A stretch of 64,000 bases of DNA from IMG/VR virus record IMGVR_UViG_3300029267_001718, positions 1 through 64,000 of that record, one strand, 5' to 3'. Position numbers and translations under genes: made by a program. This document shows positions 5,499 to 63,348 of this stretch, piece after piece. The stretch's first letter is position 1; every line of letters begins with the position of its first letter. The stretch comes from a virus. Under the pieces are notes generated by a model. That model saw only the letters and a list, made by a program, of their open reading frames with translations, was not told the DNA's origin and searched no databases.

Positions 5499-6931
5499 GA
5501 TTTCTCTACGATCACTATTTCTACGCGTCGAAAAGCATCCACGGGATTAGTTCGTTCTCGCTGATCCGTAGTTTGGCTCATGGTTGTCGGCGACTCGGGG
5601 AAACGGTTGCAATTGACTACGCGGCTCCGAAGGTTGCGAAGGATTCGATTCAGTGGGATGCTGACGACTTGCGGGGGTGCGGTCTGTTTCCGCATGAGTT
5701 GGGACCGTCGAAGATGCCTCGCGAACCTTATCCGTTCTTCGAACCTGAGTACGTGCGATTCATTCGTGACAAGAATTATGCAGCGGACTTCCTTCTGACG
5801 AAAACGTATGCCCATGTTCCGAGTCTCTGCACGCTACAGCACACTCTCGCGTCGAAATGGGAGTTGTTCCTGCCGTTGCCGATCATCAACTATTTCACGG
5901 AGACGACGCTGGACGATGCACTGTGCAAGTGGGGACTGAACGAGGACTATGCTGCGGGATCGATTGCGTTGAGTGCGGCGTGCTGTCCGATGTTTGTGTT
6001 GAATCCGTTTGACATTCAGGAAGTTCGGCGATTGATTCGACGATACCTGTCGTCGTCGCTGGTTGGCAAAGCGTTGGAAAATATCCACGTTGTTCCCCCG
6101 TCGTTCGAAGCTGACTATATCGATTCTCAAATCCCGCTCTGGGAAGCTGAACGGCGTGAGCGTCGGTTGTCGGGACGGATCAACGTTTTTCACGGCGGGG
6201 CAGTCGATCCGAAACGACACGTCACGGATCTAGTGAACGCGGTTGAGGAAGTGCGTCGTACGGGTGCGGACGTGCATGTGCATTTGGTCACGCAAACGAG
6301 TCAAAAATTTGAGCAACCTTGGGTGCACTGTGTAAACAACTGCAGCGGGCGGGACTACATAGACCAATTCGGCAAGGGTGACATTCTCTGGATGGCAGCG
6401 GACTACGAAGGCACGGGTCTGGGGTATATGGAAGCGATGCGTTCTGGCATGATTCCGATCTGCAACGAGAAAGCGTTGTGGGTTGTGCACCGAATGCCAG
6501 GAGGTTACCCGTTTTTCTTCAGAAATTTCTCGTCGGAACATCACCTGATGCTTGGGGCGATGGTCAAGCGGTTCGCGGAGTTCAAGGATTCGTGGCAACC
6601 TGAGATCATTGCCAAGGCGGGGGAGTGGTCGTCTGAACCTGTCGCCCGCACGTTTCTCGACACGGCGGCGAAGGTTATCAAACCTTACACAGAGAGTAAC
6701 ATCGAAACCGCTAAACGCTGTTTCGCTTTCAAGTTTTTGCGTACGGCGGATGAGCGTGGTCTACTCCCTGAACGTGTGACGCTCGCGGACGTTCTTCCCA
6801 TTATGACTTCAGTGACGGATAAGGAATTTCCGTTTGAGTGGGTAGGTCATCGCGGGATCAAATACATGCTTCAGGCGTTGGGATATTCGGACACGTGCGA
6901 ATCCTCTGAGATCATTATGGAAAGGACTTAG
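5495..6931 (+). CDS. GT-B fold glycosyltransferase (GT4-like)
   Basis: A 478-residue protein with two Rossmann-like halves. The C-terminal half carries FHGGAVDPKRH near residue 230 (donor-domain start) and YEGTGLGYMEAMRSG near 306, the acidic nucleotide-sugar-binding region of GT4 enzymes. It likely transfers a sugar from an NDP-sugar donor in the cytoplasm. It overlaps the preceding gene by 4 nt and leads straight into the epimerase at 6934, so the enzymes are probably made together. The acceptor is unknown. Confidence 0.78.
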   Translation: MRFLYDHYFYASKSIHGISSFSLIRSLAHGCRRLGETVAIDYAAPKVAKDSIQWDADDLRGCGLFPHELGPSKMPREPYPFFEPEYVRFIRDKNYAADFLLTKTYAHVPSLCTLQHTLASKWELFLPLPIINYFTETTLDDALCKWGLNEDYAAGSIALSAACCPMFVLNPFDIQEVRRLIRRYLSSSLVGKALENIHVVPPSFEADYIDSQIPLWEAERRERRLSGRINVFHGGAVDPKRHVTDLVNAVEEVRRTGADVHVHLVTQTSQKFEQPWVHCVNNCSGRDYIDQFGKGDILWMAADYEGTGLGYMEAMRSGMIPICNEKALWVVHRMPGGYPFFFRNFSSEHHLMLGAMVKRFAEFKDSWQPEIIAKAGEWSSEPVARTFLDTAAKVIKPYTESNIETAKRCFAFKFLRTADERGLLPERVTLADVLPIMTSVTDKEFPFEWVGHRGIKYMLQALGYSDTCESSEIIMERT

Positions 6932-54189: not shown

Positions 54190-54218
54190 TTGCAATCATC
54201 GCCGATACCGGCTATATT
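54190..54218 (+). promoter_or_regulatory. Promoter with embedded GCCGATACCGGC operator, copy 2
   Basis: TTGCAA (54190-54195), 17 bp, TATATT (54213-54218), operator at 54201-54212. Leader begins near 54225 and carries the GAAAC, CACCACC, ACGGGA pattern before ATG 54267. Confidence 0.82.
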
Positions 54219-54266
54219 TCAAACATGCGAAACACATTCACCACCACCGCAAACGGGACCAAAACC

Positions 54267-57536: not shown

Positions 57537-57586
57537 GCCGATTTCGGTGAAATCGGGTTGACGCGGTCGCCGATACCGGCTATATT
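57537..57586 (+). promoter_or_regulatory. Double-operator promoter, copy 3
   Basis: TTGACG (57558-57563), 17 bp, TATATT (57581-57586); operator GCCGATACCGGC at 57569-57580 and a second, imperfect site GCCGATTTCGGT at 57537-57548. The two start points are 32 bp apart, about three helical turns. It drives the DUF6011-like gene. Confidence 0.87.
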
Positions 57587-57633
57587 TCAAACATCGGAAA
57601 CAAATTCCACACCACCAAAACGGGAGCGACACG

Positions 57634-58470: not shown

Positions 58471-59463
58471 ATGAGCGAAACTGAAACATCAACGGAACTG
58501 ATTCTCGGCAGCGGCGTAGCCGGGGACATTTGGGAGGGAACTGCTTCGACGTTCGTTCCCATGCTCAAGCAGGACATGCCGATTGCCGAACGCAAGGAAG
58601 CGGTGCGAAACATCCTGCACGCAAGCGGCGAGATCGACGACAAATTGAATCTTGTCGCGGGCGAAATGCTTTACGAGGTTCACGCCAACGAGTATTGGAA
58701 AGACTGGACGATCACAGTCGACGGCGAGGATCGTCCGTACTCGTCTTTCGAGGAATACTGCGAAGTCGAACTGGCGATGAAAAAACGCAAGGCTTACACG
58801 CTGCGGCAAGTCTACGAGCGTTTCTGTGTCGAACTCGACATTCCTCTCGAAACCCTACGCGGGCTGCAGTGGACGAAGGCACGGGCGATCCTCCCGGTGG
58901 TCACTGATGAGAACTGGGAAGAACTTCTCGGCAAAATCAAAACGCTGTCGAAATCCGAAGTCGAAAAACTGGTCAAGTCGATGAAGGCGGACGACGATGA
59001 CGATGACGGCGAGCCCGATGAGCTAGCCCGCATCGCCTTCAAACTCCACCCCGAACAATTCGAAGTGGTCACGTCGGCACTGAAGGTTGCCGAGTCGATG
59101 AGCACGTCTGAAGTCCCGGGAAATCAACTCCATTTGATCTGTATGGATTTTATCTCGGGTGCAGCCGGAACGGGCTTAACAGGAGCCCTGGCGAAGCTGG
59201 ACGTGGTTGTCAAAAACATCGAACGAGCGTTTGGTGTCGAACTCGAAATCAAGGGAGTCGACGAAGACCGCTATTCGGCGTTGAAGGGTGCGGCGGACGC
59301 GGAACCCATTGATACCACATCGACGGACGCCGAGCCCGACGAGGACGATACAGACGTTGTGGGCGATCTGGATGACGTGGACGACGAGGAACCGTCTGAC
59401 ACGGATCTGGAAAGCGTACTCGCCGACGCGGAAGCGGCTGAAGCCGCTTTGGGGGACGACTGA
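58471..59463 (+). CDS. Hypothetical protein with acidic C-terminal tail
   Basis: A 330-residue protein behind AGGAGCGAC. The first 140 residues are mixed alpha/beta (WEGTASTFVPMLKQDMP; YEVHANEYWKDWTITVDGE), followed by a helical region (LGKIKTLSKSEVEKLVKSMKAD). The final ~60 residues are nearly all acidic. I recognise no family. The tail may mimic nucleic acid or recruit basic partners. Confidence 0.6.
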   Translation: MSETETSTELILGSGVAGDIWEGTASTFVPMLKQDMPIAERKEAVRNILHASGEIDDKLNLVAGEMLYEVHANEYWKDWTITVDGEDRPYSSFEEYCEVELAMKKRKAYTLRQVYERFCVELDIPLETLRGLQWTKARAILPVVTDENWEELLGKIKTLSKSEVEKLVKSMKADDDDDDGEPDELARIAFKLHPEQFEVVTSALKVAESMSTSEVPGNQLHLICMDFISGAAGTGLTGALAKLDVVVKNIERAFGVELEIKGVDEDRYSALKGAADAEPIDTTSTDAEPDEDDTDVVGDLDDVDDEEPSDTDLESVLADAEAAEAALGDD

Positions 59464-59635
59464 TCTATGGTTGCGAAGATGCCATTGCCGAGGACGTGCA
59501 GTATTGGCGGTCGGGCGGTCCCCGAGCGTCGGGTAACGCTGACACGTTGGGCTAAGTGGAAGGGTGGTTTCCCGGGGCGGAGTGCACGCCAAACCGGGGA
59601 GGTAGGCTGGATCTTCGCAACCTCTTTTTCTACTT
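59464..59635 (+). other. Non-coding leader before the tRNA-like gene
   Basis: No convincing gene. A reading frame that runs from 59467 past 59635 into the tRNA-like sequence has a composition unlike the neighbours. GAGGT/ACCTC with TTTTT at about 59599-59629 is a weak terminator, and GC-rich stems precede it. The stretch may be part of a longer structured RNA. Confidence 0.4.
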
Positions 59636-59932
59636 GCGAGGGTAGCTCAATTGGCTGTTCACGGAGGGCGGCGGTATTAGGGACGCTGAACCCGTTTGCC
59701 TCAAGGCTCACTGGTTATCATAGCCGATTCGTGAACGACGCGGTGCGGACTTCGGTAGAGAACGTTGATACTGCCACTCCGCCCAAGCCCAATGAAAGTC
59801 CACGTGGTGACTGCGGGCGAGGGAGCCGTTGTGTGAGCACGGATTCGGAGCATACGAAACGGAAGAATCCCTCTTCCGTATTGCGTTACTGCTACGGAAA
59901 CGAGGTTGGAGGTTCGAGTCCTCCCCCTCGCA
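59636..59932 (+). tRNA. Interrupted tRNA-like gene with about 220-nt insertion
   Basis: GCGAGGG (59636-59642), then TA and GCTCAATTGG, is a tRNA 5' half. The T-arm GGAGG, TTCGAGT, CCTCC (59908-59924) plus CCCTCGC (59925-59931) and A73 is the matching 3' half, with seven perfect acceptor pairs. Between lie about 220 nt instead of about 35. GGACT (59747-59751)/AGTCC (59797-59801) with flanking GGTGC and GAA resembles the P7 region of group I introns, weakly. No unique anticodon could be assigned. Confidence 0.55.
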
Positions 59933-59979
59933 CTTTATTTTGAATTGAAACGCTTCACCATAGAACCGGAGTAGGAAAA

Positions 59980-60687
59980 ATGGCGATTGGCAGTGTATCG
60001 GATCTGCGGAAATACCTGGACGAGCGGGCACGTAAAACGAAGAAATTGCTCGATGAAATCTCTACGGCTCAATTGAAGCGAGCCAAAAGTTTCTGGACAT
60101 TGATCTGGAAGCTCACTGATCTTTGGGACCACATTCAATCGGGTTATCGACACGAGGGCAAACAGGGGCAAGAACTTCGAATGCTCACATACACTGCCTA
60201 TCTCCGACAACTGAAGGGACGCGTCAACGAACCCGATGCTATGTGGGGGCGTCAGGTTTACAAGCGTTGGGTGTCGGACGCGGATCGGGATACGATCCTT
60301 GAAGGGTGTACCCCCGAAGCGTTGCTGCTTGTGGAATCCAAACGTCCTGTGTGTCATCGGCGGAAGATCATCACGAGGTTGCGTGCTCACGTCAAACGTG
60401 GAGCAACGTTGGTGACGGAAGACACGGTGCGACGTTGGTGGCAAGGATACATCGACGGCGAAGCGTTGGCGGAAACTCCCCCGCACACAATCGGGGAGGA
60501 CGATCCGGATGTGTGTGCGTTCAAAATTCGAAAGCGTCGTAGTTCGGTTCTGAACGAATTGGAAATTGCGGAGCGTGTGGTAGAATTGGCGAAGAAGCAT
60601 CGGGCGTTGATCGCTTCGCTATTCGAACTCTACGGCGAGGATTGGCGAACGGCGAAATCAGTGAAGGCACCCGGGGACACAAAATGA
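59980..60687 (+). CDS. Hypothetical protein
   Basis: A 235-residue mostly helical protein behind CCGGAGTAGG. N-terminal coiled coil (SDLRKYLDERARKTKKLLDEIS), a basic central part (LLVESKRPVCHRRKIITRLRAHVKRGATLV), and helical C-terminus. Resembles nothing I can name. Its 3' end carries repeat copy 7 and overlaps the next gene by 4 nt. Confidence 0.58.
   Translation: MAIGSVSDLRKYLDERARKTKKLLDEISTAQLKRAKSFWTLIWKLTDLWDHIQSGYRHEGKQGQELRMLTYTAYLRQLKGRVNEPDAMWGRQVYKRWVSDADRDTILEGCTPEALLLVESKRPVCHRRKIITRLRAHVKRGATLVTEDTVRRWWQGYIDGEALAETPPHTIGEDDPDVCAFKIRKRRSSVLNELEIAERVVELAKKHRALIASLFELYGEDWRTAKSVKAPGDTK
60665..60680 (+). repeat. CCCGGGGACAC near-palindrome, copy 7
   Basis: AGGCACCCGGGGACAC in the last codons of the 59980 gene, ending 3 nt before ATG 60684, so it could also affect initiation there. 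Confidence 0.65.
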
Positions 60688-60983
60688 AATACACAGTCCG
60701 CGAGAATGCTGACCACACGCACACGTTGCTTCGATATCACAAGGAAGTGCCGCGATTGATTAACAACGCGGAGCTAGAATTCTGGTTTGAAATCGAACGA
60801 CTTCGTGAAGCACTGCAAGCGATTGCGGATCGTGGCGATCCACCCCCAGGACCGCGAGCGGCGGTGTGTGTAACGACCACAACTCTGGCGACGATGGCGA
60901 AGCAAGCGTTGGCGGAAACAACGTTGTCGGTTCCAGACACAGATGAACGCGAAATTTCTGACGTTCGAATGGAAGGATTTTGA
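60684..60983 (+). CDS. Hypothetical protein
   Basis: A 99-residue protein, overlapping the previous stop. A beta-like N-terminus with His (NADHTHTLLRYHK) precedes a long helix (AELEFWFEIERLREALQAIAD) and a Thr/Ala-rich end. No family recognised. Confidence 0.55.
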   Translation: MKYTVRENADHTHTLLRYHKEVPRLINNAELEFWFEIERLREALQAIADRGDPPPGPRAAVCVTTTTLATMAKQALAETTLSVPDTDEREISDVRMEGF

Positions 60984-60984
60984 A

Positions 60985-61500
60985 ATGCGGAAGGGATTGT
61001 TCGAAGAACTGACTGCGATCATGCCGAATACCGTCTATGTGTTTCAGGAACACCCGGGCGGATACGTTTGTGACAAACTCACGAAGCCCGACGAGGGCAC
61101 AGAGTTCGAACGAAAACGATACCTCATCACGGGCGAAACGCAGTGCACTTGTTTGGGGTGGATGAAGTTTCGCGACTGCAAACATCTGAAGATGCTCCGA
61201 CGTGACATGAGTTGGGTCAAAAATCCCCCTCCGTTCTCTTTTGCAGTGGAGGAATTCGAACGACTCTTTGTTGAATTGCAGAAGCGATTCACATCGTTCG
61301 CCGAACGGGATCTGCCCGACTTTCTTAGCGTGTTGGAAGACGCACATCCGGACACTGTTCGGGTGATGGAGTTGTGTTTTCCAGAGTCGGAATATCCGCC
61401 GAACATGGTGCTCGCGGTCTCCATAGCTAAGTGGTCCGAGGGTTACGATATGGCGATTGCGTGGGAAAAAATTTCGGCGGATTCTGAAGCCTCAGAATAA
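60985..61500 (+). CDS. SWIM-type zinc-finger protein
   Basis: A 171-residue protein from ATG 60985 (GGAAGGA before). C54-x-C56 and C65-x-H67 (QCTCLGWMKFRDCKH) fit the SWIM motif. N-terminal beta section and helical C-terminus differ from the 56458 protein, so the shared element is the finger. Second of three SWIM-type genes here. Confidence 0.7.
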   Translation: MRKGLFEELTAIMPNTVYVFQEHPGGYVCDKLTKPDEGTEFERKRYLITGETQCTCLGWMKFRDCKHLKMLRRDMSWVKNPPPFSFAVEEFERLFVELQKRFTSFAERDLPDFLSVLEDAHPDTVRVMELCFPESEYPPNMVLAVSIAKWSEGYDMAIAWEKISADSEASE

Positions 61501-63254: not shown

Positions 63255-63304
63255 GCCGATTTCGGTGAATGGGTGTTGACTCGTTCGCCGATACCGGCTA
63301 TATT
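63255..63304 (+). promoter_or_regulatory. Double-operator promoter, copy 5
   Basis: TTGACT (63276-63281), 17 bp, TATATT (63299-63304); operator GCCGATACCGGC at 63287-63298 and GCCGATTTCGGT at 63255-63266, again 32 bp apart as at 57537. It begins just after the AAA+ gene and drives the HExxH gene. Confidence 0.87.
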
Positions 63305-63348
63305 TCACACAACGGGAAACGAACCACCACACAAACGGGAGCGACAAA

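Follow-up and report, generated by a model that had tools for sequence, protein, structure and literature searches.

The element at positions 59636-59932 (+ strand) of the window, the 64,000-nt stretch of viral DNA analysed here as part of a 79.6-kb virus record, is on balance best read as a phage-encoded non-decoding tRNA-like RNA, for which no homologues were found. The whole tRNA-like RNA was delineated by a descriptor match in combination with the predicted fold, and its predicted mature length is 297 nt before any CCA addition.

Anatomy and folding of the element

The 5' strand of the acceptor stem, GCGAGGG (59636-59642), forms 7/7 Watson-Crick pairs with CCCTCGC (59925-59931), which together with the discriminator A (59932) completes the 3' end (59925-59932); CCA is not encoded. 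U8 and A9 (59643-59644), the D-stem strand GCTC (59645-59648) and A14, A15, T16, T17, G18 and G19 (59649-59654) follow the tRNA consensus and yield the D-arm 5' half GCTCAATTGG (GCTC-AATTGG), with A14, the purine at position 15, G18 and G19 in register. Towards the 3' end, the V-loop AGGTT (59903-59907) precedes the T-arm GGAGG-TTCGAGT-CCTCC (59908-59924), which is paired at 5/5 positions; a TTCRANN loop on this arm and an acceptor stem of 7 bp are as expected of a tRNA. The seven acceptor pairs, the D-arm-like sequence and the perfect T-arm described in the first-pass annotation were all confirmed, the D-arm 5' half being of textbook form. Judged from these positions, a normal tRNA elbow could form, in which G18 and G19 would contact the T-loop, A15 would pair with U48 and U8 with A14.

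The extra sequence between the two halves, earlier described as a single insertion of about 220 nt, is present but does not form one block. A 180-nt insert placed after G19 (59655-59834) breaks the D-loop behind its canonical 5' half and extends it to approximately 186 nt, and an irregular hairpin of 63 nt (59840-59902) stands where a tRNA has its anticodon arm, no 5-bp stem with a 7-nt loop and U33 being found there. This hairpin is tipped by ACGGAAGA/TCTTCCGT, an 8-bp stem at 59859-59866/59872-59879 that corresponds to the strong hairpin previously noticed at about 59859-59879. The region encompassing the arm (59838-59903) is more stable than shuffled sequences, with a z of -3.8; the D-loop insert, for which no Rfam match was obtained, is no more stable than its own shuffles (z +0.77), and the whole element gives a moderate z of -2.1. 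The GGACT/AGTCC pairing proposed earlier within the insert is borne out as far as the sequences go (GGACTT/AAGTCC at 59747-59752/59796-59801), but it is absent from the minimum-energy fold.

Probably GAGC (59835-59838), with A26 next to it, serves as the D-stem 3' strand, as in the minimum-energy fold, where GCTCA pairs with TGAGC at 59834-59838; the placement is not unique, five places in the insert being able to pair with GCTC, and GAGC at 59848-59851 is one alternative. The second GCGAGGG reported by the first-pass annotation was located at 59817-59823 and is able to pair with the acceptor 3' strand, giving an alternative 116-nt fold (59817-59932) with a z of -3.7 and a weak match to tRNA-Sec in the Rfam search (21.5 bits, E 0.1). 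The consensus at U8/A9, in the D-loop and in the V-loop favours an acceptor starting at 59636, on the sequence evidence, and the RNA may be able to switch between this pairing and the one at 59817.

Assessment against random sequence

A descriptor combining the acceptor pairing, the T-arm and the D-arm 5' consensus was written after the element had been seen, using general tRNA positions only, and was applied to 11,948 random windows of the same dinucleotide composition. Acceptor and T-arm alone were matched 709 times in these windows, that is, in about 6% of windows by chance. The full descriptor matched none of the 11,948 and matched the real window once, and the tRNA halves at 59636-59932 are therefore not a product of chance. 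The descriptor recovered 21 of 39 real tRNA genes from four loci (about half), which makes it specific rather than sensitive.

Genomic setting and relatives

The record encodes a terminase, an HK97-type capsid protein, a family A DNA polymerase and AAA/CbbQ-like proteins; near the site, every gene is on the + strand. The element lies in a 516-nt gap, larger than any other nearby, that opens after the end of one gene at 59463 and closes where the next starts at 59980. Codon statistics mark this gap as non-coding: its single long + strand ORF (158 aa, 59467-59943) scores -0.16, vs +0.28 to +0.40 for genes nearby. This ORF has no match among phage families. The upstream gene (58471-59463, + strand, 330 aa) has a syntenic counterpart with 47% identity in the nearest relative, L006. 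For the downstream gene (59980-60687, + strand, 235 aa) no relative was found, and structure prediction returned no usable model (pLDDT 35).

A second structured non-coding element fills the 5' part of the gap (59464-59632, + strand). It is branched, with a perfect 12-bp closing stem (59469-59480/59611-59622), and TTTTT (59625-59629) comes after it. Its folding z of -2.9 to -3.0 is suggestive, but 1 of 13 control stretches gave an equal value; it has no Rfam match, and BLAST against phages returned no homologue. Directly 5' of the tRNA-like RNA, nothing resembling a promoter was detected. Short similar sequences occur in the gaps ahead of genes at 54190-54230, 57558-57600 and 63269-63310 and translate as PIPAIFQT / ADTGYIS in two frames; they are probably a promoter or regulatory motif of the phage. 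Further along the record, a polynucleotide-kinase-like protein (PHROG 505, E 8e-11) is encoded at 72719-73243 (L003 12719-13243) and possibly serves RNA or DNA repair.

Among relatives of the flanking genes, only L006 retains the syntenic site, and it does so without the RNA: about 90 nt there separate the homologues of 58471-59463 and 60943-61500, which lie side by side. Since both RNA elements and the gene at 59980-60687 are absent from that site, the tRNA-like RNA locus is, on this comparison, accessory in the lineage. Searches for the exact 5' and 3' halves found none in viral contigs, the exact 24-nt 3' half was found in none of the genome contigs of the collection, and BLAST of the RNA against phages gave T-arm or chance matches only. 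As no homologue was found, the predicted structure stands without covariation support, and selection on it, its details and its function are to be regarded as unproven.

Model searches and alternative explanations

ARAGORN found no tRNA or tmRNA, whether within the 64-kb window or in the record's 60001-79593 part, and the element would thus be the sole tRNA-related gene observed in this record. The first-pass annotation had proposed a comparison with the Rfam models for group I introns, tmRNA and tRNA, and its outcome was negative. The tRNA model (RF00005) scored 17.4 bits on the 3' part of the element, under the cut-off of 29, and neither the group I model (RF00028, P3-P8 core) nor the tmRNA model (RF00023) matched at E 10 across the record, both searches having matched control genomes. 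At the gathering and E 10 thresholds Rfam as a whole gave only the weak tRNA-Sec match and one chance antisense match. The YrlA model (RF02553), which also matched control genomes, reached 8.7 bits on the T-loop only, vs a gathering score of 69, in a search of the whole record. The 79.6-kb record, possibly incomplete, yielded neither a TROVE (Ro60) protein nor a tyrosine integrase, the class that the integrase search covered.

The leading alternative, to which we give a low probability, is tRNA punctuation, whereby the fold would be a processing signal only: cuts by RNase P and a 3' nuclease would part the 58471-59463 message from the one downstream, leaving an excised RNA without any function. 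The single orientation of the flanking genes, the position of the element in the one large gap and the U-tract with a strong stem directly upstream are consistent with it, but an acceptor/T-arm minihelix would suffice for this purpose, which leaves the D-arm consensus, the 180-nt insert and the 63-nt arm unexplained, and the relative L006 manages without the element. Somewhat less probable is a decaying tRNA gene, split by insertions and possibly with its 5' half partly duplicated. The two insertions relative to a tRNA, the second GCGAGGG and a near-miss anticodon hairpin, CGTT-ACTGCTACGGA-AACG, directly 5' of the V-loop would be in keeping with such a history. Against it, the conserved positions of the acceptor, the D-arm 5' half and the T-arm are all intact and the anticodon-arm region is an unusually stable hairpin rather than random sequence, which makes the degraded tRNA of the first-pass annotation the less likely reading.

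Next in rank, and improbable, is a tRNA with an intron, of group I or another type, whose removal would give a normal tRNA, even though canonical tRNA halves flank the extra sequence and the insert contains GGACTT/AAGTCC. The group I intron suggested earlier is not supported, given the failure of RF00028 to match, the lack of room for P4-P6 and the location of the insert in the D-loop. Deleting that insert restores no anticodon arm of 5 bp and 7 nt, so a single intron cannot explain the element and two would be needed. Less probable again is an attP site, that is, the 3' half of a host tRNA carried for site-specific integration. tRNA 3' fragments are commonly left or carried by integrating elements (PMC9897764), and some matches of our scan look alike. 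The presence of a matching 5' half with a D-arm argues against this origin, as do the negative search for a tyrosine integrase and the absence of the exact 24-nt 3' half from every genome of the collection. The order of these rivals is thus punctuation, decay, intron and attP. A divergent tmRNA or YrlA RNA receives the lowest probability of all. Both are longer RNAs that have tRNA-like parts and no anticodon, but the covariance-model searches largely refuted this reading: for tmRNA there is no match and position 3 is G3-C70, not the G3-U70 that marks alanine tmRNA, and for YrlA the score is confined to the T-loop, the model places the T-arm before the D-arm and no TROVE protein was found.

Comparison with known RNAs

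The acceptor stem, U8, the D-arm 5' half, the V-loop and the T-arm are common to the window RNA and canonical tRNA (RF00005), which differs in its D-loop of 7-11 nt and in the 5-bp/7-nt anticodon arm that the window RNA lacks. Like the window RNA, tmRNA has tRNA-like ends around a large insert and no anticodon, the differences being those given above. YrlA, a bacterial Y RNA, is likewise a tRNA mimic without an anticodon; its arms are permuted, and its Ro60/TROVE partner was not found in the window's record. In the Streptomyces phage Paradiddles (W01, MF347637.1), a sub-threshold YrlA-like RNA (76129-76243, 34.8 bits, E 4e-7) lies directly 3' of a tRNA and a few kb from a gene for a TROVE (Ro60-like) protein (81719-82639).

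Closer parallels are offered by T4 rnaC and rnaD (species 1 and 2), phage-encoded stable RNAs located beside tRNA genes. The annotated rnaC (139 nt) has a T-arm at its end and no tRNA-type anticodon arm, as in the window RNA. No sequence similarity was found between them; the T4 RNAs, no more than half as large, are encoded within a tRNA cluster. In the window RNA, unlike them, the D-arm 5' half is canonical and the D-loop contains a 180-nt insert. The best reading of the window RNA is that it is broadly of the T4 'species 1' kind with a much larger D-loop domain; as far as its sequence allows, it may be regarded as a variant of a kind already known but poorly understood.

Comparable RNAs in other phages

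A comparison set was assembled by BLAST with the T-arm, which yielded unannotated phage RNAs with an altered anticodon arm. One of these, a Samistivirus RNA of 134-135 nt, was recovered in 6 of 7 genomes examined and is unannotated (Paradiddles 101071-101204, equal to L002 1397-1530, Rfam tRNA 32.8 bits; others in L024, L025 and L135-L137). Like the window RNA, the Paradiddles copy has an acceptor stem, a D-arm, a GGTTGGAGGTTCGA T-arm and an enlarged multi-hairpin anticodon region. It differs in its length of 134 nt, in having the multi-hairpin insert in the anticodon arm only and in its occurrence in phages rich in ordinary tRNAs, and there is no sequence similarity beyond the T-arm.

In IMG/VR, the V-loop/T-arm pattern AGGTTGGAGGTTCGARTCCTCC was carried by 50 viral-contig stretches, 40 of them in ordinary tRNAs. 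Six of the other ten (L048, L080, L083, L085, L086 and L087) kept the 5' acceptor strand, with 6 or 7 pairs, and the D-arm. With a control T-arm, 7 of 36 stretches were without an ordinary tRNA, most of these resembling 3' tRNA fragments, and at most 1-2 of the 36 were comparable cases. The difference from 6/50 is too small for the GGAGG T-arm to serve as a marker of an anomalous class.

A 184-nt tRNA-like gene on a 202-kb viral contig (L048 8597-8780, - strand) combines a canonical D-arm with a small anticodon-like hairpin and a branched domain of about 110 nt, followed by the V-loop and T-arm. L085 8581-8678, L086 486-605 and L087 10452-10539 (- strand) are Rfam-positive tRNAs missed by ARAGORN, in which the anticodon arm has given way to a longer hairpin or to some 60 nt of inserted sequence. 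L098 (around 6430-6570) holds a tRNA-like gene with about 70 nt, possibly a short intron, between the anticodon-stem halves CTTTG and CAAAG, its acceptor pairing not being confirmed. In the Microbacterium phage Squash (L021) and in Marcie (L023), a tRNA-like gene with a shortened anticodon loop stands right after the gene for the ssDNA-binding protein; that of Squash has an enlarged D-loop too, and that of Marcie is annotated 'tRNA-OTHER'. Some of these phage tRNA-likes may instead be intron-bearing or degenerate tRNAs, and they are taken as leads, with no defined family. In the literature, mostly outside subscription journals, no description of such RNAs was found.

Proposed role and implications

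The acceptor/T-arm is the main part recognised by RNase P, tRNA 3' nucleases, the CCA-adding enzyme and EF-Tu; TrmA and TruB recognise the T-loop and elbow. An RNA with an acceptor, a T-arm and an elbow but no anticodon can undergo the processing, modification and protein binding of a tRNA and yet take no part in decoding. On this basis the element is inferred to be a tRNA mimic excised from the operon transcript. The non-decoding tRNA-like RNA proposed here would be co-transcribed with the neighbouring genes of the same strand, RNase P would free its 5' end, and host enzymes recognising the acceptor/T-arm would trim and CCA-tail its 3' end. Imitation of tRNA is more probable for it than codon reading. 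As a stable mimic it might occupy tRNA-handling proteins, such as enzymes of tRNA processing or modification, EF-Tu or a host defence directed at tRNAs, the choice of target being a guess; we infer decoy action as the most natural use of a tRNA mimic. Alternatively, it might act as a carrier of the D-loop domain, outside decoding. The tRNA-derived regulatory RNA of the first-pass annotation survives in that a non-decoding tRNA-like RNA fits best, but no regulatory role was shown. Absence of the locus from the L006 syntenic site is what would be expected of accessory cargo.

A tentative and rather doubtful extension is that non-decoding tRNA mimics are widespread in phages, the acceptor and T-arm, usually with the elbow, being kept and the anticodon arm carrying unrelated structured domains; such RNAs would serve as decoys or scaffolds against host proteins that handle or target tRNA. 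If so, the window RNA would be an extreme case, with a 180-nt domain on the D-loop. tRNA finders drop sequences without an anticodon arm, and RNAs of such a type therefore stay unannotated; given the six cases among 50 pattern-matching viral-contig stretches, phages may commonly carry RNAs of this kind. If stable and CCA-tailed, these RNAs would be candidates for a role in counter-defence, with anticodon nucleases as the opponent, or in the control of tRNA metabolism in the host, and would provide comparable cases for the old puzzle of the role of the T4 species 1 and 2 RNAs.
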